Positions 19,122-49,684 of a stretch of DNA of 64,000 nt are shown one piece after another. The notes below the pieces were generated by a model. The model did no database searches and had not been told where the DNA came from. It saw only the letters and a list, made by a program, of their open reading frames with translations. This DNA is from a virus, in IMG/VR virus record IMGVR_UViG_3300046787_000675, positions 1 through 64,000 of that record, one strand, 5' to 3'. A program made the position numbers and the translations under genes. How positions within the stretch are numbered: the stretch's first letter is position 1; each line of letters starts with the position of its first letter.

Positions 19122-20453
19122 CTATTTTCCTTTTAAGTTATTGTATTCTTCTGCTATTTTATCTTCCCACGGCGGAAACATAAGTTCGGAACCGATCGCA
19201 TAACATCTTTTATCTATGTTCTGCTTCCAGAACTCCAGCAACTTATCTCTATGTGCGGGAGTAGATAAACCGGTTATAAACGTTCTAAGAGTATATCCCA
19301 TTAGCTTATTTGCAGAACAACTGCTACAAGATCCTTTTTTAGCTATCTCTTCATTAAATTCCTTTGTATTGTTACGTATAAGATCTGTATCGAATAACTC
19401 TGGAATAAGCTTAATTAATGCGGAGGAATGGTGTCCTATAGATAAGGTATCCAGTTTAGTCTGCTCCATTATTTTTACTATATCATCCAGTCTTGTTTTC
19501 TCGGTATAACTTAACAGTAATCTTTGCCGGGTGTTTCCCGGTGCCGAAAGTTCTACTTGACGGGCAAGAGAAGTAAGCATCAATTCTATAGGGATATAAG
19601 GTATATACCTAAAAGGAGAATTTACCTCTGTTGTATATATACGCATGTAGTATTTCCGTAGCATATAGGAACACAACCGGTTATTGAAATCCGCTATTAT
19701 ATCCTTGTACGGTTTTTCTTTCGACGCGATAAAATTAGACAGGGAGCTCATTGTTATTGCAGGGGAGTACCATTTACCCGGATCTTCTAATGATGCCCCT
19801 AACGGGATACCGTTTAAAACAACATCACTTATTCCGAGACGCGAAGCAAGATATAAACCTTTATAGAAAGAATTTATAGGTAAGTCGCCGTATATGTCTT
19901 TACCTTTTTTATTCATTACTTCGAATACACCAGGATACTTATTTACAGTCTCTCCGCGAAATCTATTTACCTGTGCTGAGAAGAACCGGTGCTGCATATG
20001 CTCTGTATCGACAAACTTTATACAGTTGTCCCGGCGAAAAAGTGCACCGGAGTAGTTAACCGGTGATTCGCTCCCTATCCAGTAAGAAGCATAAGGATTA
20101 TCGAGCAGCCCGCTTCCTATAGCAATAATAACATGCCCTTTAAGGAAGGCTTGCTCTGTTAATGTCTTGTTATATGTATGTCCGGCCCCACAAAGTATTG
20201 CACATGCTCCGGCATGTATACCTACGAAAGGTTCGCGACTCTGTGCAATATTATCGAGGTGTACTTTTTTTCTGCTTAAAAACTCTTCATCGTAATTTAA
20301 CGAGTTGTCTCTTTTATCCAGGCGTATAAGTGTATCGGCAGATAATGCAGCTGTAAAGATAGCTTCGTTATTTTTATCTTTATAGACATCTTGAGCCATG
20401 GACACACGTAAATCGCGAGAAGAAAGAAAACTCTTCTTAAAACCGTATGTCAT
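19122..20453 (-). CDS. DUF115/MptE-like Rossmann protein (443 aa)
   Basis: CAILCGAGHTYNK at about residues 87-99 resembles the GxGPSL nucleotide-binding loop of the DUF115/6-hydroxymethylpterin pyrophosphokinase MptE-like fold, often found in glycosylation gene sets. VVLNGIPLGAS further on resembles the second conserved loop. Cys-rich SCSSCSANKL near residue 375 may bind metal. Its neighbours are glycosyltransferases. The 807-bp gene at 30520 has the same fold. Assignment rests on the loop motif, so moderate confidence. Confidence 0.6.
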   Translation of the reverse strand: MTYGFKKSFLSSRDLRVSMAQDVYKDKNNEAIFTAALSADTLIRLDKRDNSLNYDEEFLSRKKVHLDNIAQSREPFVGIHAGACAILCGAGHTYNKTLTEQAFLKGHVIIAIGSGLLDNPYASYWIGSESPVNYSGALFRRDNCIKFVDTEHMQHRFFSAQVNRFRGETVNKYPGVFEVMNKKGKDIYGDLPINSFYKGLYLASRLGISDVVLNGIPLGASLEDPGKWYSPAITMSSLSNFIASKEKPYKDIIADFNNRLCSYMLRKYYMRIYTTEVNSPFRYIPYIPIELMLTSLARQVELSAPGNTRQRLLLSYTEKTRLDDIVKIMEQTKLDTLSIGHHSSALIKLIPELFDTDLIRNNTKEFNEEIAKKGSCSSCSANKLMGYTLRTFITGLSTPAHRDKLLEFWKQNIDKRCYAIGSELMFPPWEDKIAEEYNNLKGK

Positions 20454-20603
20454 TTATTTCTCCTTCTTAGAGGGCGTTTCCTGTGTCTGGAACTTATATG
20501 AACATACGTTACATCGCCTTTCCCGGACGATGCTGCTCGTGCCTGCTATCCTTATTGTGCGTAGTACACTACTATTATCTTTAGTACATTTGGGGCATTG
20601 CAT
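20454..20603 (-). CDS. Zinc-ribbon mini-protein (49 aa)
   Basis: It starts MQCPKCTKDNSSVLRT and has a second pair, RRCNVCSYKF, giving a CxxC-x24-CxxC ribbon like the N-terminal domain of NrdR. The ATP-cone of NrdR is missing. It stops directly at the start of the 443-aa gene, with an AAGGAG site for that gene overlapping its own end. Possibly a DNA-binding regulator. Confidence 0.75.
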   Translation of the reverse strand: MQCPKCTKDNSSVLRTIRIAGTSSIVRERRCNVCSYKFQTQETPSKKEK

Positions 20604-20810
20604 TTATAGCGTCCTTTCTTTATTAAACGGAATATCTAACGGATTTTTGCATATTTGTTTGTTCTGGCTTTTATCGCGAAGGGATACTTCGTTACCTTGT
20701 TCGTCTTTTATTACGAGCTCGTCTTTCTTTCCCCAGATCTTTTCGTACCCTCTCCCGTATGCATCGGGGTCGGACTCCGGGCGACGGGCATCGCCTTTAC
20801 CTGCTGACAT
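20604..20810 (-). CDS. Small conserved-type phage protein (68 aa)
   Basis: The start SAGKGDARRPESDP followed by YGRGYEKIWGKK resembles a short protein (SxGKGDxPRPVD...YxxNYDxIFGKK) that recurs in many phages near replication or structural genes; function unknown. It lies one codon upstream of the zinc-ribbon gene, with AGGAGAAATTT before the ATG. This is the first gene after a terminator. Confidence 0.7.
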   Translation of the reverse strand: MSAGKGDARRPESDPDAYGRGYEKIWGKKDELVIKDEQGNEVSLRDKSQNKQICKNPLDIPFNKERTL

Positions 20811-20910
20811 AAATTTCTCCTCGGTTTAATTAATATAGCTATTGAAATGTCCTTTTATGCTATATATGGTATAGATATACACTATTTATTTATTTGTGCA
20901 ATTCATAAAT

Positions 20911-20963
20911 AGCTAAAAAAAAGAACCCCCGAGATGTAGAAAGGAACGAAACATCTCGAGGGT
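20911..20963 (-). terminator. Intrinsic terminator
   Basis: On the minus strand ACATCTCG (as ACCCTCGAGATGT) pairs with ACATCTCGGGGGT across a 13-nt loop, with one mismatch, followed by TTCTTTTTTTTAGCTAT. It separates the 81-aa gene at 20982 from the operon starting at 20810. The T8-AGCTAT tail is the same as at the 31355 terminator. Confidence 0.85.
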
Positions 20964-20981
20964 CCCAGCCGAGGGGAGTGT

Positions 20982-21227
20982 TTATCCTGTAGACTTCCGG
21001 TAATTATCTAACATTTTAGATATCGGAGGTCTAGCAGGATGTCTTAACATATCTGCCTGTATATCTGTCTCGAAGTTACTATGCTTCGACTTAAATACAG
21101 ATCTAGGTAAGTTTACGGACCTTAAATTTTTGGCTGTTGAACCGTTCATAAAGTTTTTAGTCGCGTTCCCTACTGATGCAGAAAACGCTGCGGTACTTCC
21201 AGCCGAAGCTTCTTTGTCTATACTCAT
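20982..21227 (-). CDS. Hypothetical protein (81 aa)
   Basis: A small, Ser/Asn/Lys-rich protein with the start MSIDKEASAGSTAAFSASV, which only loosely recalls the shared tag. No domain is recognised. It is followed by a strong terminator. AAAGGATATATGTA lies before the ATG. Confidence 0.7.
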   Translation of the reverse strand: MSIDKEASAGSTAAFSASVGNATKNFMNGSTAKNLRSVNLPRSVFKSKHSNFETDIQADMLRHPARPPISKMLDNYRKSTG

Positions 21228-21278
21228 TACATATATCCTTTCTTAAATATATCTTCCCTTTTCATTACAGCAATATAT

Positions 21279-22028
21279 TTAACGGGAAGAAATGTTTAAA
21301 TATTGCTGTGCTTGTCGCTTAAGTTCTTCATTATACTTATTCTGAAGGTAAGAATCGTAAACCTCGTAATAGCGCGGATCTTGTTCTCGCGTCATGCCTC
21401 TGTGTTTCTGTAGATATTTATTCCAGTCCCCTTTATATTCTACAGCTGTCCTATGTTGCATCATTTTTATCGCGAGTTTCTTGTACAGCTCTTGTTGTTC
21501 CGGAGTATTTCCCATGTCCCCTATGCCCGTTCCTCCTCTGTTAATATAATCGAAGTTCTTATCGTAGCCACGCAGATTTCTATTGTTACCGTGCAACGCG
21601 AATTTATCCGCCTGCGTTATTAATCCCTTCAGGTAGGTACTTAATTCCGGTTCATTACTTAGAATCTTTTCGTAGCGTCCTCCGGGAGCGTAGTCCTGGA
21701 GATAACCTTTATTTAGTTGCACCGGGCCGTATGCCGTTGTTCCTGGGTTTTGGTTGTAATTGGCACGAATAAACCGCGATCCTTTAGTAGCGGTATGTTC
21801 TGCCTCCGATACAGCATCGTAATGTAATTCCGGTGAAGCTTTCTTTAACCAGTCCTGATAAGAAGGTCTAACCAGAGGGGCTCTCTTTGGTTTTACCAGA
21901 GGGATATTCGCCCCGGCAGCAGCTTTAGCTCCGGCAGCAGCCGGGCTTGTATCTGCAGCTACTTTAAATATTATTGTCTCAGGTTTATATAAATAACCTT
22001 CGATATATGCTGCTGTATTTATATCCAT
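21279..22028 (-). CDS. Tagged virion lytic transglycosylase-like protein (249 aa)
   Basis: It starts MDINTAAYIEGYLYKPE (shared tag), then an Ala/Pro-rich linker, then a lysozyme-like domain from about residue 60. The segment DAVSEAEHTATKG, with a candidate catalytic Glu, followed by GTTAYGPVQLNKGYLQDYA, matches the SLT/goose-lysozyme pattern (E...GPxQ). The protein would cut peptidoglycan during DNA entry. The tag suggests it is packaged in the virion. Catalytic assignment is by pattern only. Confidence 0.6.
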   Translation of the reverse strand: MDINTAAYIEGYLYKPETIIFKVAADTSPAAAGAKAAAGANIPLVKPKRAPLVRPSYQDWLKKASPELHYDAVSEAEHTATKGSRFIRANYNQNPGTTAYGPVQLNKGYLQDYAPGGRYEKILSNEPELSTYLKGLITQADKFALHGNNRNLRGYDKNFDYINRGGTGIGDMGNTPEQQELYKKLAIKMMQHRTAVEYKGDWNKYLQKHRGMTREQDPRYYEVYDSYLQNKYNEELKRQAQQYLNISSR

Positions 22029-22081
22029 CTGTCGTATCTCTCTTTTGCTTTATTATAAAAATAAACCCTATATCTTAAAAA

Positions 22082-22097
22082 ACGAACACATATTCGT
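22082..22097. repeat. Palindromic ACGAAYRCRTRTTCGT element, copy 2
   Basis: ACGAACACATATTCGT, flanked by A4 on one side and T4 on the other, directly after the stop of the 140-aa gene. The A/T flanks extend the dyad, giving a small terminator-like hairpin on either strand. Confidence 0.65.
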
Positions 22098-22100
22098 TTT

Positions 22101-22523
22101 CTAGGAAATGTTATCGTATATATCACTATAGAGAAAACCTTCGAAGGAAGGCGCGCTCTCCGATATTTGCAGGGCGTTTGTCAAGAAACCGCAGGTTACA
22201 TCTATTAACTCGCTTATAACTTCCGGTGGTGTAGTTGTTACATCGTACATTATTCTCTCTGTAAGATCTCCGTGGACCGGTTTGTTAATATTGTCTGCCT
22301 GTTCCTTTAGCGACAGTTCTATTGCATCTAGCATTTTAGTTAGATGATCCGACATCTCTTTCGTTGTCGACACCAGACACACTACACCGTTCTTCTTAGT
22401 GTAGTTATCCGGATTCTTTAAAAATGTTTCGAACTTCCTTTTATATTCTTTGTATTCTCCGTACTTTCTTACGAAGTTAAACAACCTTCTCTCGATATCG
22501 ATTTCCTGTTCTCGGCTAAACAT
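22101..22523 (-). CDS. Hypothetical protein (140 aa)
   Basis: Predominantly helical and charged, with no recognised domain (MFSREQEIDIERRLFNFVRK, VCLVSTTKEMSDHLTKML). It lies between terminase and the lysozyme-like gene. AAGGAGTAACT precedes the ATG. A possible small terminase or chaperone by position, but no helix-turn-helix is visible. Confidence 0.75.
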   Translation of the reverse strand: MFSREQEIDIERRLFNFVRKYGEYKEYKRKFETFLKNPDNYTKKNGVVCLVSTTKEMSDHLTKMLDAIELSLKEQADNINKPVHGDLTERIMYDVTTTPPEVISELIDVTCGFLTNALQISESAPSFEGFLYSDIYDNIS

Positions 22524-22533
22524 AGTTACTCCT

Positions 22534-22674
22534 TCATTTTTTTAGGTATTCGTCAACGTTAACCGTCGGTTTGTATTTCTCTGTCCAGCGTTCCGGCAGG
22601 ACTATCTTCTGTTTACAATCTTTGCAATATGCATTGTTCTTAGATAAATGTAAAATTCGAATATGTGCACACAT
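22534..22674 (-). CDS. Mini-protein with CxxC (46 aa)
   Basis: A short frame starting MCAHIRILHLSKNNAYCKDC and ending in ...VDEYLKK. It has an AGGAAT site upstream and its stop overlaps the ribosome binding site of the next gene. YCKDCKQK could be half a zinc site. It fills the gap beside the terminase gene. Confidence 0.6.
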   Translation of the reverse strand: MCAHIRILHLSKNNAYCKDCKQKIVLPERWTEKYKPTVNVDEYLKK

Positions 22675-22684
22675 ATATAAATTC

Positions 22685-24493
22685 CTATTTTGTTGTTAAG
22701 TTCTGTACGAGTTTATTTAGTTCGCCGCGCTTATACCAGAGATAACCGCAACCGAAAGTAAGAGAGTGCGATGCGTCGTCGGATTTACCCGAACGTTTTA
22801 AAATACGCAGACGCTCTATACCGGTGTCACCGGATCGAGTATCGCGATACAAGGCGAGAAAATCGTTGGTAATGGACTGCGAGGATTTGTACTCTGGTAA
22901 TAATACTTTTCCTCTCCCCAGCATAGTAAAAAAGATAATAAGCATACGCGACCGGGCTACTTGCAACCCGCGACGCATACCTTCGTCTGTAGGTTCGATT
23001 AAAGAAGCTGTAGCATCTCCGCCGTGATACATCATAGGAACTATTTTTTCTGGGGGAATGACATTTGCTTTGACAATAAGGAACTCTTGATTGAATCCCG
23101 CGCCGCCGGCATCGTGTACAAAGGCAGTAGGGTTAAAAGATTTCCATCTCTCGCCTAATACATTTACCTGTTCGAGAGGTGTCATGGATTTAGGCAGTCT
23201 TTCCATGTATAACACATCAAAAGGATCTGCGGGTACATCTGTCTCTCCTATTATAGACAATAAGGTATAGGAAGTAGCATTCTCGTTTCCGTAACCCGAC
23301 CAGTCCACGGACATAACAATCCGGCGGTATTTTTTCCGGCGCTGTAAAGCTACTGTTAGGTCGTTTAAATATGCGTCGAGAGAAACATGTTTAATTTCGT
23401 CGGGACGGATAAGCATTTCCTCGGAGTCCATAGGTATGCCTAAAATCTCGTTAACAAAGGTAGTTCGCGGGAGAGGATCTATATCCAATTCTGCGCTTCC
23501 TTTGTAAAATGCCCGGAGTACATCCCATTTACGTTTTGAGCTCCAGTGCGCGTAATGTATTACCTGCGGGACGTGTATTCCCTCGGCATAGGCAAGTCTA
23601 TCGGGGTACCGGTGTACATATTGTCCGTTTAGCGGTGCTTCGCCTAGAGGTCTATGACAATGTAAACATATTGGACCGTTTTCTCCTATCATTAACTCTA
23701 CATTATATAATCCGGATACAGAGTCAATGTCGTCGGAGGCAATACTCCATTTATTACAATGCGGACAGCGCGTCGCCCAGTATCCCTGGGAAGTTGCCCG
23801 GAATTTAACATCCAGTGTACCTGTTGTTCCTTTAGGTGTACCGGAGAAAAGTTTATCGTAATAGAGTTGCGAACCGGACATGCACTGGTCAATAATATCT
23901 GTGTAGGCAAGAACAATGTCTTGTGTCTCGTCGTAGTTTATCCCGTTTACAGAATATCCCCTTGCAGCATCCGGTCCCTTAAAGCAATGTGTGTACTGTA
24001 CTTTATTACCGTTTACAAGTTCCCTTTCCATAGCACGCTGTACACATTTCTTATCTGTAAATACACCGGGTACTGCATCTCTTAACAGCGGGGCTGCTTT
24101 ATCGACAGACAGGCGTCGGCTTTGTTCGTATCGCGGACACACCATTAAAGTATTGTACATAGTCCGCAACCTTCCCCGGAGGTAACTCGACGAGGTAAGG
24201 TTCTCAGATTTACCTACCTGGCGGGCACATCGCATTACTTTGACAGGCGCGCCGTTTAGATTGAAAAGAGGTTTAAATTGAGGGTAATATTGCAGGGAGT
24301 AAGGAGCTTTACCTAACTTACACCATGCAGCAAGCAACACATCTGTCTGTCCTGTTTGTTTAATGTATGTTGCTAATGTTTCGTAGAGGGCATTTGTTTG
24401 TTTCTTATTTATCTTGTCTCCCGAATTACTGTCTACGATATTGAATTCGGCATGTACTGTTGTAGGGGTTTCTTCGATCCTCGGCAAAAACAT
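22685..24493 (-). CDS. terL: Terminase large subunit (602 aa)
   Basis: The packaging motor and headful or site-specific nuclease. Walker A is CARQVGKSENL near residue 88 and Walker B VNGINYDETQDI near 188. A zinc-finger-like insertion CPHCNKWS...CLHCHRPLG sits around 245-280. The RNase H-like nuclease has VMSVDWSGYG near 391, FVHDAGGAG near 460 and a final Asp region SDDASHSLTFGCGY near 575. All catalytic elements are present and the length is normal. The gene is followed closely by a glycosyltransferase pair upstream and the lysozyme-like gene downstream. Confidence 0.95.
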   Translation of the reverse strand: MFLPRIEETPTTVHAEFNIVDSNSGDKINKKQTNALYETLATYIKQTGQTDVLLAAWCKLGKAPYSLQYYPQFKPLFNLNGAPVKVMRCARQVGKSENLTSSSYLRGRLRTMYNTLMVCPRYEQSRRLSVDKAAPLLRDAVPGVFTDKKCVQRAMERELVNGNKVQYTHCFKGPDAARGYSVNGINYDETQDIVLAYTDIIDQCMSGSQLYYDKLFSGTPKGTTGTLDVKFRATSQGYWATRCPHCNKWSIASDDIDSVSGLYNVELMIGENGPICLHCHRPLGEAPLNGQYVHRYPDRLAYAEGIHVPQVIHYAHWSSKRKWDVLRAFYKGSAELDIDPLPRTTFVNEILGIPMDSEEMLIRPDEIKHVSLDAYLNDLTVALQRRKKYRRIVMSVDWSGYGNENATSYTLLSIIGETDVPADPFDVLYMERLPKSMTPLEQVNVLGERWKSFNPTAFVHDAGGAGFNQEFLIVKANVIPPEKIVPMMYHGGDATASLIEPTDEGMRRGLQVARSRMLIIFFTMLGRGKVLLPEYKSSQSITNDFLALYRDTRSGDTGIERLRILKRSGKSDDASHSLTFGCGYLWYKRGELNKLVQNLTTK

Positions 24494-31326: not shown

Positions 31327-31351
31327 TTTCTACTCTACTTCATCGATAGCT

Positions 31352-31405
31352 AAAAAAAAGAGCGGAAGACTTTCTCCGGTACACTTTTTAGGGTGTACCG
31401 GAGAA
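31352..31405 (-). terminator. Terminator after the 75-aa gene
   Basis: On the minus strand TTCTCCGGTACAC (31393-31405) pairs with GTGTACCGGAGAA (31372-31384), 13 bp, loop 8 nt. A T8 tract with the AGCTAT tail follows 11 nt later, in the same arrangement as at 20911. It isolates the DUF115-like gene from the region to its right. Confidence 0.75.
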
Positions 31406-31414
31406 CAATATATC

Positions 31415-31642
31415 TTAAAGAGCTTGCGGTTTTAACGCCTCAATCACAAGGTTATTAAGATATATCGGGGGGACGGTTAGCGATATTAACCCATTGAGCT
31501 CGGGGGCAATCAATCCTTTATCGTCTATCCTATAAAGTATATTTCCTGTTTTCAGGAAATCACTTTTTATAAATATTTTACCGTCTTTTCTGTGCAATGA
31601 AAAGGGTTCAGTACCCTTTTTTGTTTCTAGTAAGATAAGCAT
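31415..31642 (-). CDS. Hypothetical protein (75 aa)
   Basis: Small protein, beta-rich by appearance (MLILLETKKGTEPFSLHRKD, ILYRIDDKGLIAPELNG). It is preceded by an AAAAGGAG site and the structured leader of type B (31651-31760), and followed by a terminator, so it is the last gene of the hairpin-rich module. No family recognised. Confidence 0.7.
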   Translation of the reverse strand: MLILLETKKGTEPFSLHRKDGKIFIKSDFLKTGNILYRIDDKGLIAPELNGLISLTVPPIYLNNLVIEALKPQAL

Positions 31643-31650
31643 AATTTGTT

Positions 31651-31760
31651 CTCCTTTTAAAAGACGGGCTTATGTCTGCCCTTACTGAATTAAAACTTCT
31701 ATTTAACAACTGCATTAAATAGAAGGGGCTGTTGGTTCAGTGTCTACCAACAGCCCTATT
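31651..31760 (-). promoter_or_regulatory. Structured RNA leader, type B, copy 1
   Basis: Minus-strand order: hairpin GGGCTGTTGGT/ACCAACAGCCC (31746-31756 with 31726-31736, 11 bp, loop AGACACTGA), hairpin CTTCTATTTA/TAAATAGAAG (31716-31725 with 31696-31705, 10 bp), then TCAGT (31684-31688) that can pair with the ACTGA loop as a pseudoknot, then GGGC/GCCC (31678-31681 with 31666-31669) and the AAAAGGAG of the 75-aa gene. A second copy at 35360-35475 has different bases but keeps every pairing. Confidence 0.8.
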
Positions 31761-31769
31761 TAGTAGCTT

Positions 31770-31895
31770 TTTTAACATAGGGAGCTACACTAACCCTATC
31801 CCGTATAAAGTAGTCTATGTAACGCCAAGACTCCTGCGCCTGACTTTATAAAGGTCAGGTACTTGCTGTAGCCTTTTAGTGTCTTGCTTAGGACA
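31770..31895 (-). ncRNA. Structured spacer RNA with H-type pseudoknot potential
   Basis: In the rest of this spacer CAAGAC pairs with GTCTTG at a distance and encloses CCTGAC/GTCAGG. Downstream, ATAGGG pairs with CCCTAT, and the loop GTAGCT can pair with AGCTAC after an A6 run, giving an H-type pseudoknot. The arrangement recalls small riboswitch pseudoknots such as preQ1-I, but the conserved ligand-binding bases are not clearly present. Confidence 0.55.
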
Positions 31896-31900
31896 AGTTT

Positions 31901-32719
31901 TTAGTTAGAGGCGAGCCATTCTTTTATGGCTTTCGAAAGCTCTTCAGGACTGGGTATTGCACCCGTCGGGGCGAACGGGCTTCCACCTATGGTATCGGCG
32001 CCTCCCCAATTTCCTATTTGAAACTGCTCACTCAAGAACGGCCAAAGGGATTTAAGAGAAGGGACTTTACTAAAGGGCAACTTACCTATGGTGATCTTAT
32101 CACCTAACAAAAAGCCGAACCCAGCAGACTTGTAAATGTCTGCGAAATTGTTCTCCCCATCACGAGAGAATACAATTTCTCCTTTCGGGGAGAGGCCAAT
32201 TGCTGTTCCTTTGAACTTGTGGAGTTTGTCTCTCCGATAGAGAGTACCCTCGGTATATTCCTTACCGACTCTCTCCACTAGGGAGAGTAAAATCTCGGTC
32301 GATGGAACGACCCCGCGTTCGGGGCGAGCCCATCCAAAGATGGAAAGACCCTCTACGTTATCGGCTGCTGACGCGCCGTTCGCGTCTATCTGACTAACTT
32401 CGCGAACGAAGTTAGCAAATTGCGGGTCGTCCGCCGCAGCGGGGTTTAAAACCAGCCACGTACTCAATATAGAGTCCGCATCGATCGAGCTAACCCGCAT
32501 TTCCTCAATGTCCGGGAGGAATTGTCTCAGCCCAAGCCTCAGGGCATTCAACACCTGCAAGCAGGTTGCCGACAGAGGGAATCGTTCCCCTTCGCCATGA
32601 TGGTCGAAGGAGAAACTATTTGTCTCTGGTTTCGCGGCATAGCCTCGGTAGGCACCATCAATGTATATGGTGTTGTTTTCCATTTCATTTACGGGATCAG
32701 TTAGTAGTTGGATATTCAT
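31901..32719 (-). CDS. DHH-like protein in hairpin-rich module (272 aa)
   Basis: NSFSFDHHGEGERFPLSATC near residue 35 and VSSIDADSILSTWLVLNP near 75 resemble metal-binding motifs of DHH-type phosphoesterase-like proteins (FDHH, DxD). If so it may cleave nucleotides or act on a small phosphorylated molecule; this is inference. The DNA carries more than twenty short perfect inverted repeats, e.g. CTAACTTC/GAAGTTAG at 32394-32415. It is preceded by a type A leader with AAGGAG. Confidence 0.6.
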   Translation of the reverse strand: MNIQLLTDPVNEMENNTIYIDGAYRGYAAKPETNSFSFDHHGEGERFPLSATCLQVLNALRLGLRQFLPDIEEMRVSSIDADSILSTWLVLNPAAADDPQFANFVREVSQIDANGASAADNVEGLSIFGWARPERGVVPSTEILLSLVERVGKEYTEGTLYRRDKLHKFKGTAIGLSPKGEIVFSRDGENNFADIYKSAGFGFLLGDKITIGKLPFSKVPSLKSLWPFLSEQFQIGNWGGADTIGGSPFAPTGAIPSPEELSKAIKEWLASN

Positions 32720-32727
32720 AATTTTCT

Positions 32728-32855
32728 CCTTATAAGACGGGCTATGACTGCCCTTATTTTTTCAAAACAACCCGCCTTGCATACACAAGCCAGAGTTTAT
32801 TACCCCCTGTAGTACAGGGACGCACTAAGCTTAAAATCTATTTATAGTCGCTTAG
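32728..32855 (-). promoter_or_regulatory. Structured RNA leader, type A, copy 1
   Basis: Minus-strand order: P1 CTAAGC/GCTTAG (32850-32855 with 32825-32830), P2 CCCTGT/ACAGGG (32814-32819 with 32805-32810), conserved GGGTAATAAACT, P3 CTTG/CAAG inside AACUC/GGGUU, then GGGC/GCCC and AAGGAG. The stop codon of the gene upstream lies in P1. Compared with copy 2 the stems differ by paired changes. Confidence 0.82.
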
Positions 32856-33301
32856 TCGACTTCCTCCTCATCCTCATCCAGAGCAGGGGCATTCTCCCAC
32901 CACTCGTAGATCAACGATCTTAAATCCGACAGTCTGTCGGACTGTTCTCGTTGGAGATGAAGACGAGGATCTTCCTCGTCTAGGATCGGGAGACCTACAC
33001 GACTTTTTAAATCGTCAGGTAATTCTTCAAATCCTAGGTAGTTGCAATAGCTTACAGTCAGGACATCCTTTACATCCTGCTCTGTTACTTCCCCAACTAC
33101 GGGGAAGGTTTTAAATATATCTTTCGGGATGTCGAGGAATACCCCCGAAAGAGTTAAGTTGTTACTTACAGCCACTTCTTGGGAGGAACATGGCGGTCTT
33201 GTAGTTATTACAGGAGCGACGAGATAGGTCTCGTCGTTATCCCGTACAGCGCAAAGGAGGGCTTCGCGCCATTTAACTACCTTCAATCGAGGAGTTCCCA
33301 T
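32852..33301 (-). CDS. Hypothetical protein (149 aa)
   Basis: I chose the inner ATG at 33301 (MGTPRLKVVKWREALL), as GAGGAATGGTT gives proper spacing. Acidic C-terminus (DEDEEEVD). No recognised domain. The coding DNA has many inverted repeats, for instance AGACGAGGA/TCCTCGTCT at 32962-32982 and TCTTTCGGG/CCCGAAAGA at 33120-33152. It overlaps the next gene by 19 bp. Confidence 0.65.
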   Translation of the reverse strand: MGTPRLKVVKWREALLCAVRDNDETYLVAPVITTRPPCSSQEVAVSNNLTLSGVFLDIPKDIFKTFPVVGEVTEQDVKDVLTVSYCNYLGFEELPDDLKSRVGLPILDEEDPRLHLQREQSDRLSDLRSLIYEWWENAPALDEDEEEVD

Positions 33302-33696
33302 AACCATTCCTCGTTGAATTCCTCAAAATCCTCTCTGAAGAATCTATTCGGAGTGGGCCCACCCCCTATGATTAGCCCTGAGGCGAGCATAAATATGCTA
33401 CCAAGTCCTTTCCCTAGAGAGCGGGAGGAGCCTCCCTCCTTCCAGAATTTCTCTGGAATATAGAGGGCTTCTTCATCGCCCTCTATATTCTCTCCTGGTA
33501 GACATGTGTAATGCTCCAGCTCATTTTGAGCATCCTCCTCTTCCCCTACGGCAGTAGGGTCATAGGTATACCCCTTTTTACGGGGTGTTTTCAATTTTAA
33601 CCCCGCAGGGGTTATAATTATAGATCCACCCTCTGGGGTGGGCAGTACGGAACCGCCCGCGGCGTAAAACTTATAATTTAGGTTTCTTTTATTCAT
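33283..33696 (-). CDS. Hypothetical protein (137 aa)
   Basis: Starts MNKRNLNYKFYAAGGSVLPT after a type A leader and AAGGAG. Gly-rich segment near residue 105 (LGSIFMLASGLIIGGGP) is hydrophobic. The C-terminus is acidic and aromatic. No family. DNA hairpins include GAATATAGAGGGC/GCCCTCTATATTC (13 bp, 33456-33490) and CCCTAC/GTAGGG at 33544-33559. Confidence 0.65.
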   Translation of the reverse strand: MNKRNLNYKFYAAGGSVLPTPEGGSIIITPAGLKLKTPRKKGYTYDPTAVGEEEDAQNELEHYTCLPGENIEGDEEALYIPEKFWKEGGSSRSLGKGLGSIFMLASGLIIGGGPTPNRFFREDFEEFNEEWLWELLD

Positions 33697-33704
33697 AATT
33701 TTTC

Positions 33705-33836
33705 TCCTTATAAGACGGGCTTATGAAACCCTTATTTTAAAACAACTCGCCTTACCTACGTAAGCCCAAGTTTATTACCCCCTACAGCGTAGGGACGCAC
33801 TAGGCTTAAAATCTCTTTATAGTCGCCTAGTCGACT
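33705..33836 (-). promoter_or_regulatory. Structured RNA leader, type A, copy 2
   Basis: P1 CTAGGC/GCCTAG (33825-33830 with 33800-33805), P2 CCCTAC/GTAGGG (33789-33794 with 33780-33785), P3 CTTAC/GTAAG (33760-33764 with 33751-33755) inside AACUUG/CGAGUU, then GGGU/GCCC and AAGGAG. All the stems of copy 1 are kept with different base pairs. Confidence 0.82.
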
Positions 33837-33871
33837 GCTACGTTTTACGCCCAGCTCGGCGCGGACGGTTT

Positions 33872-34150
33872 TTACATCAAGTCTTCCTTAGATGCGATTC
33901 CGTCTGCTATTTTAATAGCAGTGTGTCGGAACCATCCGAGAAGACTGTCCACGTCTTGGCTATTTTGCCAGTGGTATTCCTGGCAGGTTAGCCCTCTGGC
34001 GGGACAGCCCTTAATGTAGAACCTATACCCTTTGTACAGGATATAGATTCCATCCGCCTCTACTCTAAGATCGTAGTCCTTTTCAGGTAATACATTAGAG
34101 TAGAAGGCGATTTCTTGGATTAGATCCAAGGTATCTTTGTTATTTAACAT
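33872..34150 (-). CDS. Hypothetical protein (92 aa)
   Basis: Mixed alpha/beta protein (MLNNKDTLDLIQEIAFYSNV, LRVEADGIYILYKGYRFYIK) with no recognised family. AAGGAG precedes the ATG. DNA hairpins include CTTGGAT/ATCCAAG (34115-34131) and CTACTCTAA/TTAGAGTAG (34060-34104). Confidence 0.65.
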   Translation of the reverse strand: MLNNKDTLDLIQEIAFYSNVLPEKDYDLRVEADGIYILYKGYRFYIKGCPARGLTCQEYHWQNSQDVDSLLGWFRHTAIKIADGIASKEDLM

Positions 34151-34184
34151 GGATACTCCTTGTAGGCTGGTCAGGCCTGTTAAA

Positions 34185-34649
34185 TTATTTTTTTAAGAGC
34201 ATAACGCGACCTACGTTAAACACTTTGACATGGTAATTTAGAGCCCTCGTTTCAGCCTCATCGGCTTCTGCTAAGTACTCCGGTGTGACCCATACTCCTT
34301 TGTTCAAAACCCTTTCAAGTTTTTGCACATAAGGTGCGGAGTCATGTCCATGTCCACCGAAAAATATTACAGCCTCGGTGTGGCTGTTGGCTTGTTGCCA
34401 TGCCGCACATCCGCTGTGGCTACGCCGTTTAACTTGAACCGGGTAAACGATACCGGTGCTCTTGTTTGCAAGAGCTACGTCCACTCCCTGATGATCCAGG
34501 TCATGAGTGATGAACGCCTCCCAGCCTCTAATCTGGTCGATTACCCTTACGAGGATTTCCTCGTTTAGATAACCAACCTCTTGAGCACGGCTGGCGTTCA
34601 CTGGGATACGTGCTTTTTTATCCCAATCATACGACTTAAAAACTTTCAT
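34185..34649 (-). CDS. PD-(D/E)XK nuclease-like protein (154 aa)
   Basis: VGYLNEEILVRVIDQIRGWE near residue 26 supplies a helix with Glu, and HQGVDVALANKSTGIVYPVQ followed by VKRR supplies the D...(Q)xK core of restriction-endonuclease-like nucleases (Mrr/HJ-resolvase type, with Q in place of E/D). It may cut or bind DNA as a defence, anti-defence or recombination factor. Preceded by the short type A leader copy 3 with AAGGA. Confidence 0.5.
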   Translation of the reverse strand: MKVFKSYDWDKKARIPVNASRAQEVGYLNEEILVRVIDQIRGWEAFITHDLDHQGVDVALANKSTGIVYPVQVKRRSHSGCAAWQQANSHTEAVIFFGGHGHDSAPYVQKLERVLNKGVWVTPEYLAEADEAETRALNYHVKVFNVGRVMLLKK

Positions 34650-34655
34650 AAAAAA

Positions 34656-34731
34656 ATCCTTATAATATTACCCCCTACAGCGTAGGGACGCACTAAGCTT
34701 AAAATCTATTTATAGTCGCCTAGTCGACTGT
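34656..34731 (-). promoter_or_regulatory. Structured RNA leader, type A, copy 3 (short form)
   Basis: Keeps P1 (CTAGGC with GCTTAG using a G-U pair, 34718-34723 with 34693-34698), P2 (CCCTAC/GTAGGG, 34682-34687 with 34673-34678) and GGGTAATA, then runs directly into TTATAAGGA of the nuclease-like gene. P3 and the GGGC hairpin are absent, showing that the leader is modular. Confidence 0.8.
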
Positions 34732-34737
34732 TAAGAA

Positions 34738-35055
34738 CTACCAGGGGTAGCGGTAGTTCTTTGTTCCGGACCATTTAAACCTAGGGTTCCTAGGCACCCC
34801 CCGTAGGTCCATATACGGGAGGTGAAAAGATATTTGATGCCCTTTCCAACATACGTATAGTATGTCAGAAAAGGCATCTCCACCAATTACTACCTTAGGT
34901 AGATCGGGGAGATTTTTATCTCTTTTTATTTTCCATTCTTTTATGAACAGATCAAGGTATTTCTCCTTGTGTTCATAAAAGAATGTAGAGTCTTCCTTGG
35001 CTCGTATATTGGCCAAGAAAGCTCTTTTTAGTAAATAATTCAGGAATTTATCCAT
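34738..35055 (-). CDS. Hypothetical protein (105 aa)
   Basis: I chose ATG 35055 (MDKFLNYLLKRAFLANIRA) with GGAG nine bases upstream; an ATG at 35070 lacks a site. Basic, helical start and a beta-looking end. No family recognised. The DNA has a 15-bp stem (CATTCTTTTATGAAC, 34934-34948, with 34971-34985) and the nested pair 34836-34878. Confidence 0.62.
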   Translation of the reverse strand: MDKFLNYLLKRAFLANIRAKEDSTFFYEHKEKYLDLFIKEWKIKRDKNLPDLPKVVIGGDAFSDILYVCWKGHQISFHLPYMDLRGVPRNPRFKWSGTKNYRYPW

Positions 35056-35160
35056 CCATAGATACTCCATTAAGGTTGTTACATAGTAGAGATAGCATCC
35101 GCGCTATTTCTACCGACATGTACTCACCTTGTTAAGTACACAGCTAAGGTTTTTTATGGG

Positions 35161-35313
35161 TCATATAGAGGATACCTGTAAAACCCCTACTAGAAAGTCT
35201 TTCGCGCCTTCTTTCGCGCCCCCTTGGGGGAACTGTGGTACACATGAGCCTGTACCAAGCCCCGGGGAAACTAGTGATCCTTCACTAGAGACTGATGTCC
35301 CGGAATTTTTCAT
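35161..35313 (-). CDS. Possible degraded or mini gene (50 aa)
   Basis: A frame starting MKNSGTSVSSEGSLV, low-complexity Gly/Ser/Lys, with a weak GGGAT site. It follows a leader of type B and a three-codon frame ATG-AAA-CAG-TAA (35348-35359), which sits exactly where a gene start is expected. It may be a remnant of a lost gene. Hairpins such as CTAGTGA/TCACTAG (35271-35288) continue through it. Confidence 0.3.
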   Translation of the reverse strand: MKNSGTSVSSEGSLVSPGLGTGSCVPQFPQGGAKEGAKDFLVGVLQVSSI

Positions 35314-35359
35314 TTGTATCCCGCCCCGCTTTGCGGTCGGCGGATAATTACTGTTTCAT

Positions 35360-35475
35360 AATTTCGCTCCTTATTAAAGACGGGCTTATGAAACCCTACT
35401 GAATTTATATACTTCTACTCACCCACTGTAGTAAATAGAAGGGGCTACAAGTTCAGTTACTACTTGTAGCCCTAT
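35360..35475 (-). promoter_or_regulatory. Structured RNA leader, type B, copy 2
   Basis: Hairpin GGGCTACAAGT/ACTTGTAGCCC (35462-35472 with 35442-35452) with loop AGTAACTGA, hairpin CTTCTA/TAGAAG (35436-35441 with 35412-35417), then TTCAGT (35398-35403) able to pair with the loop, then GGGU/GCCC and AAGGAG. Six of eleven base pairs in the first stem differ from copy 1 yet still pair. Confidence 0.8.
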
Positions 35476-35547
35476 TCAAAGATAACTATGCGCTATCTCA
35501 TTATATTATGACCGTTTTTACCTAAAAATTAAGGCTATATAATCCTG

Positions 35548-35814: not shown

Positions 35815-36274
35815 CGTCTACCTCTACGGCATTATACAATAGAGAAACTGTATTTTCAAACGCTGTTCGAAGAAGCGTGTCGCTTATTACGAAAGGATAT
35901 ACCACTCCTGTACGTGCTTTGCCAGCCATAACACCGTCCACAATAAAATCCAGTATATCAATAAGATGTATATCTTCCGGTATACCATCCTCTGCTGTTA
36001 AATGGTGCCTGTTTACTTTCCTATGGTTATCCCACCAGGTAGTGTTCTTAAAGCCCCCGACGAAATCTCTATGGAAACCGTCGATGTCCGAGAACTTGTC
36101 ATGATCATGGTGTTTAACCTGTTCATCAATCAGCTCTTTAAAGAAGTCAAACCCTTTACGGATATCCCCTACATGCTGCTCAGAGCTTTTTAACAGTTGT
36201 TCTTTCGTTACCTTTGTGTAATCGCAGCTTCGTGTGTCAGCTGTCTCGCTTTTGCGAATTGTTATTTTTTTCAT
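35804..36274 (-). CDS. DUF5662-like protein (156 aa)
   Basis: VKHHDHDKFSDIDGFHRDFV and the later RHHLTAEDGIPEDIHLIDIL match the His/Asp-rich pattern of the DUF5662 family of phage proteins, which may bind metal like HD-type enzymes. Substrate unknown. It overlaps the membrane-anchored gene downstream and the 140-aa gene upstream by 4 bp. Confidence 0.7.
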   Translation of the reverse strand: MKKITIRKSETADTRSCDYTKVTKEQLLKSSEQHVGDIRKGFDFFKELIDEQVKHHDHDKFSDIDGFHRDFVGGFKNTTWWDNHRKVNRHHLTAEDGIPEDIHLIDILDFIVDGVMAGKARTGVVYPFVISDTLLRTAFENTVSLLYNAVEVDDEK

Positions 36275-44900: not shown

Positions 44901-46076
44901 TTAATTGTTATTAACAATGCATGCTCGCATTTCTGCGAACAAGGGCTGATCTGCCAACGCACGTAGGAAAATCCCACGCGCTCCATTTATATCTCGGCAC
45001 ATACTCTGTCCGAGACTCTTGATGGTCTTACGACCACCTAGATTTTGGATAACTTCTCCTGTCCAACTAGCGGTTTTACTTGTGTATGCTTCGCATTGTC
45101 TTATTATTATTTTTCCTGCCTCGTTAGCTTTACTTAAAAGCTTTTGAGAGAACTTGTAGTGGGATAAGGTAAGCATTTGACGTACTGACTTTTTGCGTAG
45201 CTTACGAGCAGCTTTACAAACCATATTACTTACTTCGAAAGGAGGTAGGATTATAACATCAAAGTTATTAACAAGCATAGCTACAGCTTTGTTGTGTAGT
45301 TCGGCTATTAAGTCTTTGATTTTCCAACGCATCCTATCTGCAGCTTTCTTAAGCCTATATCGTTGCTTAGCTGTACATTTAGTTTGTCGACTTATCAAGT
45401 CGTCTAAATAAATACACAATCTTGTTATTCTGCTCATAGCGCCTGAACCTATTTTAAAAACACCTGCAGGAGAGTAGCCTGTTAAGAATGTTCGTACACC
45501 TGGATCAAGAGCTACAATCCTACCTTGGTTTTCGGCAGGTACTGTAGTTACTTGTTCCGGTATACAGACAAACCATCTACCTTGTTGGTAAATAAGTCTG
45601 CTGTCCATAGGGGAATTTGGAATAGCTTCAGAATAGCGCAATACGCCTGACAATCTTTGATAAATACCTTTATCGCTTATCGCGCTCTTAGGGATGTAAC
45701 AAGAGTGTACAGGCTCTTTCTTACTTTTAAATTTAGGTACTTGGGGTACCCCTGTCTGCTTAGTAGTCATACGGCATTTAACAAGGCAAGAGTGCGCTTC
45801 TTTTACAGCTATAGACTTTATTTGATATGGTATTTCTTTCGACCATACAGGAGCGTCTTTGAAAAGAATATTTCTAAGATCCATCCAAGACACTCTTTCT
45901 GCAGGGTTTTTGTTTAACCAATCTAAAGCTAAGTTGTAGAAGAAACGGAAAGAACCTAGCCATTTCTTAAAGGCTATTTTCGTCTCTTTCAACGGATAGA
46001 TTCGTATCTTTCTCGATTTTGTTAGCGTACTTCCCAAATCGTGCGAAGCTGCTGGAGAAGTATTGTGATAATTCAT
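44901..46076 (-). CDS. tnpB: TnpB RNA-guided nuclease, IS607 type (391 aa)
   Basis: Start taken at ATG 46076, overlapping tnpA as is usual in IS607. RuvC motifs: IVALDPGVRTFLTGYSP (first Asp), FDVIILPPFEVSNMV (Glu) and MCRDINGARGIFLRAL (last Asp). The TSKTASWTGEVIQNLGG segment replaces the Cys4 zinc ribbon of most TnpB, as known in one IS607 branch also found in large viruses. An upstream part of the same open frame (to 46493) is only a shadow of tnpA. Confidence 0.82.
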   Translation of the reverse strand: MNYHNTSPAASHDLGSTLTKSRKIRIYPLKETKIAFKKWLGSFRFFYNLALDWLNKNPAERVSWMDLRNILFKDAPVWSKEIPYQIKSIAVKEAHSCLVKCRMTTKQTGVPQVPKFKSKKEPVHSCYIPKSAISDKGIYQRLSGVLRYSEAIPNSPMDSRLIYQQGRWFVCIPEQVTTVPAENQGRIVALDPGVRTFLTGYSPAGVFKIGSGAMSRITRLCIYLDDLISRQTKCTAKQRYRLKKAADRMRWKIKDLIAELHNKAVAMLVNNFDVIILPPFEVSNMVCKAARKLRKKSVRQMLTLSHYKFSQKLLSKANEAGKIIIRQCEAYTSKTASWTGEVIQNLGGRKTIKSLGQSMCRDINGARGIFLRALADQPLFAEMRACIVNNN

Positions 46077-46557
46077 TAACGTTTGTTGTGAGTTCTTCTT
46101 TGGAGCTAAAGCGGTGGTCATTGAGAACCACGATTTCTCCGCCGTTCTTCCTAACCATGGACTCAATGAGGTCAAATCCAAGTCTAACAAGTCGGTCTTT
46201 ACTGGTAACCACAAGCGTGAGCTTATCTCCCTGCATAAGTCGTTCCAGTAAGGCTTGAAGTCCTTTTCTTTTGAAGTTAAGAGCACTTCCGGTGTCTTCG
46301 ATGACTTCAGCGTTTGGGTACAGCTGTCTAAGTTGCGCGGTTTGTCGGACGAGGTCGTCCTTTTGTTCCGGCGAGTGGACTCTGCAGTAAAGGACGATAG
46401 AACTGTCTGCTTGTCCTCGAATGTACGATTTGACATCGTACAATCGCTGACCTGCTTCATTTTTGACTGTTCTAATCTTTCCTTCATCTGCATACTTCCT
46501 TAATGTGTTAGGATGCATTCCTAATTCTTTACTCGCCTTTCTACTTGGTAGTAACAT
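45967..46557 (-). CDS. tnpA: IS607 serine recombinase TnpA (196 aa)
   Basis: MerR-like helix-turn-helix start (MLLPSRKASKELGMHPNTLR) and serine-recombinase catalytic domain with IVLYCRVHSPEQKDDLVRQT (catalytic Ser in the VHSPEQ position), then LVVTSKDRLVRLGFDLIESM. Complete; AAGGAGGTAATA precedes the ATG. Mediates insertion and excision without target duplication. Confidence 0.92.
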   Translation of the reverse strand: MLLPSRKASKELGMHPNTLRKYADEGKIRTVKNEAGQRLYDVKSYIRGQADSSIVLYCRVHSPEQKDDLVRQTAQLRQLYPNAEVIEDTGSALNFKRKGLQALLERLMQGDKLTLVVTSKDRLVRLGFDLIESMVRKNGGEIVVLNDHRFSSKEELTTNVNELSQYFSSSFARFGKYANKIEKDTNLSVERDENSL

Positions 46558-48610: not shown

Positions 48611-49684
48611 ATGAAAAGGTCTAGTAAATGCTCTATTAAGTTTACTACTAAGAGTAAACAACACAAGCTTTCTCTTATTTTAGACGAATATGCCCGTGTA
48701 GTAAATTCATTTATAGACCTCTTTTGGACATCCTGCCCAAGTAAGGCTGCCCTTTTAAAACCTGTTGTAGACTCTGTTAATTCTTATTTTTCCGCACGTC
48801 TTAGAAAAGTAGCTGCTCGCGAAGCTATAGATATGGTAGTAGCCATGAAGCAACGAGGCGGGAATAAACCTGTACATACAGGTAAACGTATGTGCCTTTC
48901 CGAAACAATTGCAAACTACAAACCTTCGAAAGCAAAGCATTTCGAAGGTTGGATAGAGTTGCGGTGTATAGGTGCTAAAATAGCTATTGACCTTCCTATA
49001 AAGCTGCACAAACACTTTAATAAGTTACATGCTTCGATGGATTTATGTAAATCCATCGTACTTACGCCTACCTACGCGATGTTCTCTTTTTCTAAAGAAA
49101 TAGAGTACCCTGCGGTTGTGTCTGCACCTCTAGCTATAGACTCCGGAATAAAAGCTCTTGCTTCGTGTTCGGACAACACCCAACTAGGTGCCGATATAGA
49201 AACATACATTAAAAGAGTTAGACGTTGTAAACAGAACTCTAGAGGGCAGCAAACTGCTCGAAGAGCCTTAAAACAACGAATAGACGAAGTAGCTAAACAA
49301 GTTTTACAGAAGGGCGCTGATGTTGTCATCGTAGAAAACTTAAAGAACATAACAAAAAACACTAAAGTCAAACGACGCTTGACTAAAAATATGCGTTGCG
49401 TTCTCGGTACTTGGAACCTGAGATATTGGTTAAGCAGATTAGAACAGCGCTGCGAATCGAACCGTGTTCGATTCGTTAGCGTTCCTGCTTACTACACATC
49501 TCAGAAATGTTCTAAGTGCGGTCACACCGAGAAGAGAAACAGGCAACAAGAAATATTCCGATGCTGTGTCTGTGATTACACAGCTAACGCTGACGTGCAA
49601 GCGTCTATGAATATTTTAGGTCTGTTTCTTGCCGGCACCTACGGTTCCGGCTGCAAAGACAAGTTTGCTATAAAAGTAAACTGA
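48611..49684 (+). CDS. tnpB: TnpB RNA-guided nuclease, IS607 type (357 aa)
   Basis: RuvC motifs SAPLAIDSGIKALASCSDN (Asp), ADVVIVENLKNITK (Glu) and ANADVQASMNIL (Asp), with a canonical Cys4 zinc ribbon SQKCSKCGHTEKRNRQQEIF and CCVCDY. It differs strongly from element 1 TnpB, so the two elements are separate arrivals. All catalytic residues present; a guide RNA from the element's right end is expected. Confidence 0.92.
   Translation: MKRSSKCSIKFTTKSKQHKLSLILDEYARVVNSFIDLFWTSCPSKAALLKPVVDSVNSYFSARLRKVAAREAIDMVVAMKQRGGNKPVHTGKRMCLSETIANYKPSKAKHFEGWIELRCIGAKIAIDLPIKLHKHFNKLHASMDLCKSIVLTPTYAMFSFSKEIEYPAVVSAPLAIDSGIKALASCSDNTQLGADIETYIKRVRRCKQNSRGQQTARRALKQRIDEVAKQVLQKGADVVIVENLKNITKNTKVKRRLTKNMRCVLGTWNLRYWLSRLEQRCESNRVRFVSVPAYYTSQKCSKCGHTEKRNRQQEIFRCCVCDYTANADVQASMNILGLFLAGTYGSGCKDKFAIKVN

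Follow-up and report, generated by a model that had tools for sequence, protein, structure and literature searches.

The 64,000-nucleotide window analysed here spans positions 1 to 64,000 of a viral record 160,705 bp long (IMG/VR record IMGVR_UViG_3300046787_000675). Between 31.4 and 35.5 kb the window contained a minus-strand module of seven or eight small open reading frames (ORFs), lettered A to H below, in which three self-cleaving ribozymes of the pistol class lay between genes and the coding sequences were crowded with perfect hairpins beyond what codon choice accounts for. With a probability of roughly 0.6, the module is a ribozyme-punctuated phage operon whose messenger RNAs (mRNAs) are structured from end to end, most likely for stability and for translational control gene by gene.

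A scan against all Rfam families identified the three pistol ribozymes (RF02679), all on the coding strand, all between ORFs, and all above the gathering score of 34.5 bits:

34666-34729, minus strand: pistol 1, between ORF B and ORF C; 67.5 bits, E = 3.8e-10; predicted cut G34671/U34670
33773-33836, minus strand: pistol 2, between ORF D and ORF E; 64.5 bits; predicted cut G33778/U33777
32798-32861, minus strand: pistol 3, between ORF F and ORF G; 69.3 bits; predicted cut G32803/U32802

Pistol 1 began about 8 nt past the ORF B stop and pistol 2 some 35 nt past ORF D; pistol 3 began inside the end of ORF F, the stop codon of which lay within the ribozyme. Helices P1, P2 and P3 and the P1-loop pseudoknot can form in each copy: 21 pairs were drawn, and across the three copies 63 of 63 cells were standard pairs. 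Three pairs covaried among the copies. One belonged to the pseudoknot and occurred as A-U, G-U and G-C (A-U in copy 2, G-C in copy 3); the other two belonged to P3, where pistol 3 covaried against copies 1 and 2. The critical residues of the class are A32, G33, G40, C41, G42 and the G-U cut site (PMC6154101), and by sequence comparison, with numbering transferred by eye, these residues and the cut site were readable in all three pistols.

Stems were defined as perfect Watson-Crick helices of at least 6 bp with loops of 3-30 nt. The initial annotation had described 31640-35500 as crowded with perfect inverted repeats, and the count agreed: 75 stems in 31600-35500, 33 of them of at least 7 bp and 17 of at least 8 bp (at least ten had been claimed), the longest being 16 bp. 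All six hairpins given as examples were present, with slightly revised lengths or coordinates in some: 16 bp instead of 15 at 34934-34985, 13 bp at 33456-33490, 9 bp at 32961-32981 (given as 32962-32982), 9 bp at 33120-33152, 10 bp instead of 9 at 34059-34104 (given as 34060-34104), and 9 bp instead of 8 at 32394-32415. Hairpins covered 42% of the module, compared with 15-23% of six other stretches of the same genome. From 31 to 36 kb, 2-kb segments contained 36-41 stems against 11-14 expected from dinucleotide shuffles, while the rest of the window was mostly near expectation. The densest 3.5-kb block (71 stems vs. 22 expected, z = 10.2) had no near rival in the 160,705-bp record, and the module ranked second among 352 non-overlapping 3.5-kb blocks from 22 pistol-carrying and four reference phages.

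The excess also survived shuffles that preserve codons, a check proposed with the original observation. ORFs B-H together contained 55 stems against 20.5 in the shuffles (z = 7.3), 21 against 5.6 at 7 bp or more, and 11 against 1.8 at 8 bp or more, whereas 11 control genes contained 77 against 78.5. Sense folding energy of ORFs B-H was 190 kcal/mol below that of the codon shuffles (z = -10.5; controls, z = -1.9), which supports the earlier suggestion that the whole transcript could fold. G+C was elevated in the module, and third-position G+C was mostly higher than in adjacent genes; chance and base composition were rejected as the cause of stem density by the dinucleotide and the codon-preserving shuffles. 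ORFs B-H had coding scores about equal to those of neighbouring genes, which speaks against the possibility that a non-coding RNA had wrongly been read as genes and shows the module to be coding. The genes, with stem counts given against codon shuffles, and the end of the module were as follows:

35161-35313, minus strand: ORF A, possible small ORF, 50 aa; a strongly structured stretch with a coding score not above other frames
34738-35070, minus strand: ORF B, 110 aa; 6 stems vs. 2.6, folding z -6.3; contains the 16-bp hairpin at 34934-34985
34185-34649, minus strand: ORF C, 154 aa; 8 stems vs. 3.0, folding z -3.2; no family match
33872-34150, minus strand: ORF D, 92 aa; 4 stems vs. 2.0, folding z -4.5
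33283-33696, minus strand: ORF E, 137 aa; 8 stems vs. 2.5, folding z -4.0; contains the 13-bp hairpin at 33456-33490
32852-33307, minus strand: ORF F, 151 aa; 7 stems vs. 2.8, and 5 vs. 0.7 at 7 bp or more; folding z -5.0
31901-32719, minus strand: ORF G, 272 aa; 15 stems vs. 5.5, folding z -3.8; no homologue found
31415-31642, minus strand: ORF H, final module gene, 75 aa; 7 stems vs. 2.2
31350-31410, minus strand: probable transcription terminator ending the module, a strong hairpin followed by a T-run, as judged from sequence and fold

Elsewhere in the window, a weaker local excess of stems of at least 7 bp (z about 5-6) was found at 20001-23000, around an intergenic gap near 20.5-21.3 kb.

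The first and last units of the module had no preceding pistol and contained twin structured leaders, A and H, instead. Two further leaders would form the 5' ends left by predicted cuts 2 and 3:

35371-35476, minus strand: leader A, 5' leader; P1 of 11 bp, P2 of 12 bp, a GGG..CCC hairpin at 35382-35396 and the Shine-Dalgarno sequence AAGGAG
33697-33772, minus strand: leader E, 5' end after predicted cut 2; hairpin AACTTG..CGAGTT / CTTAC..GTAAG, a GGG..CCC hairpin at 33717-33731 and a Shine-Dalgarno sequence
32720-32797, minus strand: leader G, 5' end after predicted cut 3; layout as in leader E, hairpin at 32739-32753 and a Shine-Dalgarno sequence
31655-31760, minus strand: leader H, twin of leader A, preceding ORF H; GGGC..GCCC hairpin at 31666-31681

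Between leaders A and H all 28 proposed pairs were kept, five of them changed on both sides and none broken. The loop-1 ACTGA of leader A is complementary to a downstream TCAGT and may form a pseudoknot; as only two sequences were compared and the pseudoknot did not vary, the comparison is evidence for the helices and not for the pseudoknot. The alignment of leaders E and G likewise showed paired changes in their common hairpin. The leader core GCCCGTCTT had no other occurrence in this genome, and no further strong copy of the leader RNA was found in the 0.78 Mb searched or in IMG/VR.

Four leader hairpin loops carried CAUA(A), complementary to a UUAUG start region just downstream. The complements measured 9 nt (35382-35396), 7 nt (33717-33731), 5 nt (32739-32753) and 6 nt (31666-31681), and complements of at least 7 nt occurred at only 3 of the 186 ORFs of this genome. 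This suggests that the leader loops are candidate translational switches, additional to protection. Regulation might even be the main function: leaders would switch between an open form and a form hiding the start codon, and hairpins within ORFs would slow ribosomes or restrain expression until it is needed. The layout common to the four leaders fits this alternative, as do the complements to the start region, but complements of 5-6 nt are frequent by chance, and hairpins across whole ORFs and the ribozymes are left unexplained; regulation in place of protection is considered unlikely.

Under the preferred reading, a stable and structured operon, a long minus-strand transcript would begin upstream of 35.5 kb, and cleavage at the three pistols would divide it into the units A-B, C-D, E-F and G-H. 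Small self-cleaving ribozymes leave 2',3'-cyclic phosphate and 5'-OH ends, and a 5'-OH is a poor entry for decay that depends on a 5'-monophosphate (RNase E, RNase J). By this known reaction, a folded ribozyme bearing a 2',3'-cyclic phosphate would form the end of each upstream product, and each downstream product would start with a 5'-OH; in two of the latter (leaders E and G) a hairpin would lie close to that end. Through synonymous codons the ORFs would have been tuned to form strings of local hairpins. These, together with hairpins near the 5' end, would hide single-stranded sites, the ribozyme fold would cap the 3' end, and the mRNAs would be long-lived because host RNases of the 5'-end-dependent and single-strand-specific kinds would act on them poorly. 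The leaders would provide translational control of individual genes, and the hairpin and T-run at 31.35-31.41 kb would terminate the unit. Nuclease resistance of the transcript, raised in the initial annotation, is plausible and is strengthened by the pistol ribozymes, which that annotation had missed.

Pistols and hairpin-dense coding were compared in two sets of records. The first contained 22 records in all, the source phage among them; they were selected on a sequence pattern for pistols, without regard to hairpins, except for two named phages obtained via blastn. The validation set contained 30 further records matching a looser pistol pattern. In the 22 records, the excess of coding stems over codon shuffles was 1.79 where ORFs lay on the same strand as a pistol and no more than 1 kb from it, and fell to about 1.16 far off. 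Rotating pistol positions gave p = 0.0005 (14 non-redundant records, without the source genome and without ribozyme-holding windows); G+C near pistols was also raised in this 14-record set. Nineteen 3.5-kb blocks reached z of at least 5, 14 among the 45 blocks near pistols (within 4 kb) and five among the 307 others. The two most hairpin-dense ORFs of 1520, each encoding about 640 aa (L066:10951-12897, 51 vs. 15 stems; G018:66620-68536, 40 vs. 14), were homologues, 86% identical, located just upstream of pistols in two phages; the one tested had no Pfam match. Across both sets, 52 of 74 pistols started between -40 and +30 nt from the stop of a same-strand upstream ORF, a placement shared by 18% of random positions; the start of the following ORF usually lay 60-120 nt after that of the ribozyme. 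Arrays of three to five pistols occurred in G002, G019 and G039, spaced by about 300-1500 nt, with one pistol per gene or gene pair and no marked excess of hairpins.

Because a perfect stem reads identically on either strand, an RNA-level origin can be told from a DNA-level one only through wobble pairs and comparative data. In the module, the excess of G.U-containing helices over codon shuffles was 1.47 for the coding strand and 1.17 for the other; elsewhere the values were 1.26 vs. 1.14 near pistols and 1.06 vs. 1.03 far from them. In aligned homologous regions of other phages, 5.9% of near-pistol stem pairs were broken compared with 7.9% of control pairs, and 1.1% compared with 0.6% were changed on both sides. 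In the homologous pair G013/G018, stem-pair breakage was about half that of the control. Wobble pairs and homologues thus modestly favour selection on RNA pairing. The proposal that pairing would be conserved stood for the leaders, the ribozyme copies and the homologous ORF pair elsewhere; the module ORFs themselves had no homologues in the collections searched, and conservation was for this reason checked on the internal repeats of the module and on other phages. Selection on pairing is supported by compensatory changes, seen both in the leaders and between copies of the ribozyme, and by fewer broken pairs in the homologous hairpin-dense ORFs.

A process acting on DNA, e.g., template switching in replication, could instead have perfected short palindromes and left RNA structure as a by-product, a possibility already raised with the original observation. 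Strand symmetry of the perfect stems, an antisense RNA nearly as structured as the sense RNA, and an excess that grows with stem length would all be expected. Such a process would however have been confined to one genome block with neighbours at chance, and it does not predict covarying leaders and ribozymes, the stronger enrichment of G.U helices on the coding strand in the module and near pistols elsewhere, or stems retained between diverged homologues. As the general explanation it is quite improbable. Template switching may be the source of some palindromes, given antisense folding of nearly equal strength and a modest coding-strand preference for G.U, but it leaves the ribozymes, the covarying leaders and the pistol link in other phages unexplained.

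Several results weigh against the operon as read above. In the validation set the near-pistol effect was weak (1.33 vs. a null of 1.21, p = 0.025, 18 cluster representatives), although near-pistol values were above far values in 18 of 29 records, the same direction as in the first set. Given this small effect, a universal link between pistols and hairpins was rejected, and dense hairpin coding is ascribed to some pistol loci, not all. Arrays such as those in G002 and G019 contained a pistol about every 750 nt with little hairpin excess, so that pistols and hairpin density are separable. In the pistols of the module, the outer fourth P2 pair of the Rfam model is a non-standard G-A and P2 consists of A-U pairs only, which could slow the predicted cleavage. 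Antisense folding of ORFs B-H reached z = -8.3 against codon shuffles, not far from the sense value. Raw strand asymmetry, tried as strong proof of selection at the RNA level, shrank under codon-shuffle correction; because the remaining bias was small, the raw bias is mostly composition, and it was dropped as a main argument.

That pistols and hairpin-chained ORFs constitute a recurring phage system, rendering mRNAs hard to destroy by host RNases or RNA-targeting defences, is a doubtful extension. Ribozymes would in that case set non-standard ends and synonymous sites would be spent on armour, and the consequence would be a role for phage pistols together with a new coding constraint in DNA viruses.

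Further dense blocks were seen in other genomes. G004:17000-26500 contained two very hairpin-dense blocks (70 vs. 25 and 58 vs. 18 stems) 7-13 kb from a pistol. In the SPO1-like Bacillus phage Goe9, a block of small genes at L135:7500-11000 was hairpin-dense (46 vs. 21); no pistol is known at that site, none having been looked for. Two pistol-pattern matches 1.2 kb apart, at 354 and 1543 of L207 (Lysinibacillus alkalisoli), lay in a bacterial genome, possibly in a prophage with the same layout. In G010, a second, divergent single-subunit RNA polymerase (PF00940; L069:6868-8640) was encoded within a hairpin-dense block lying 1.2 kb upstream of a pistol, in addition to a normal polymerase of this family.

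RNA replicons typically have hairpin-chained RNA and carry self-cleaving ribozymes. The module could accordingly be imagined as an RNA-stage element within a DNA phage, its transcript packaged in particles or copied as RNA, with the ORFs and ribozymes belonging to the element. The polymerase encoded beside a pistol in the related G010 block would suit such an element, but a search of the present genome for single-subunit polymerases found none, its ribozymes occupied one strand only, and its coding genes had normal start signals. This explanation is very remote. DNA hairpin promoters of the N4 type were likewise unsupported: the same polymerase family was not found in this genome, and the stems run through the ORFs.

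Phage T7 mRNAs are cut by RNase III at structured intercistronic sites, giving discrete, stable mRNAs that end in hairpins. The operon proposed here resembles T7 in its intercistronic cuts at structured sites, which in the module are predicted; it differs in that the T7 cuts are made by a host enzyme and that stems are not in overall excess in T7 (observed/expected 0.84). Pistols have been known near phage genes since the discovery of the class (Harris et al., 2015; PMC4604425). The module shares with that class (RF02679) the sequence core, P1/P2/P3, pseudoknot, G-U cut site and phage context, but here three tandem copies punctuate the genes of one hairpin-dense operon, an arrangement for which no description was found in the literature searched. 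Tandem hammerheads in prophages flank single genes or short blocks with several close ribozymes (Perreault et al., 2011; PMC3088659). The same flanking layout, with several coding-strand ribozymes around single genes or gene pairs, is seen here and in G002, G019 and G039; the differences are the ribozyme class, the hairpin-dense coding sequences, and a ribozyme that often abuts or overlaps the stop codon. The present case is the pistol counterpart of the tandem prophage hammerheads, with hairpin-dense coding sequences as an added feature of which the literature searched gave no description.

Pistols are chemically well studied, and the literature searched did not state their role in phages. 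The three-copy array, the stop-codon placement in tens of phages and the hairpin-dense genes point to a concrete one, transcript punctuation joined to mRNA structure. If coding hairpins do protect messages, synonymous sites serve some DNA phages as RNA armour, with implications for how host RNases degrade mRNA and for designing stable mRNAs.

The source phage contained a recognisable terminase large subunit that was only about 24% identical to those of SPO1-like phages, which marks it as a tailed phage without close relatives in collections; a close-relative search of IMG/VR turned up none. Genes from about 20 to 38 kb were mostly on the minus strand. Module ORFs had no meaningful matches in PHROGs, Pfam, PADLOC, NCBIfam or PDB sequences, and no homologues of their proteins were found in the collections searched. 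AlphaFold single-sequence models were too poor for use (pLDDT 39 and 33). The FDHHGEG motif of ORF G recalls DHH phosphoesterases and the stretch GVDVA..QVKRR of ORF C recalls PD-(D/E)XK nucleases; both are impressions only. In the gene adjoining the module, 35884-36055 had 70% DNA identity (E = 1e-10) to a gene of Methanosarcina virus MetMV. Two transposase-family genes (PHROG 506) were located on opposite strands at 44901-46493 and 48611-49684.

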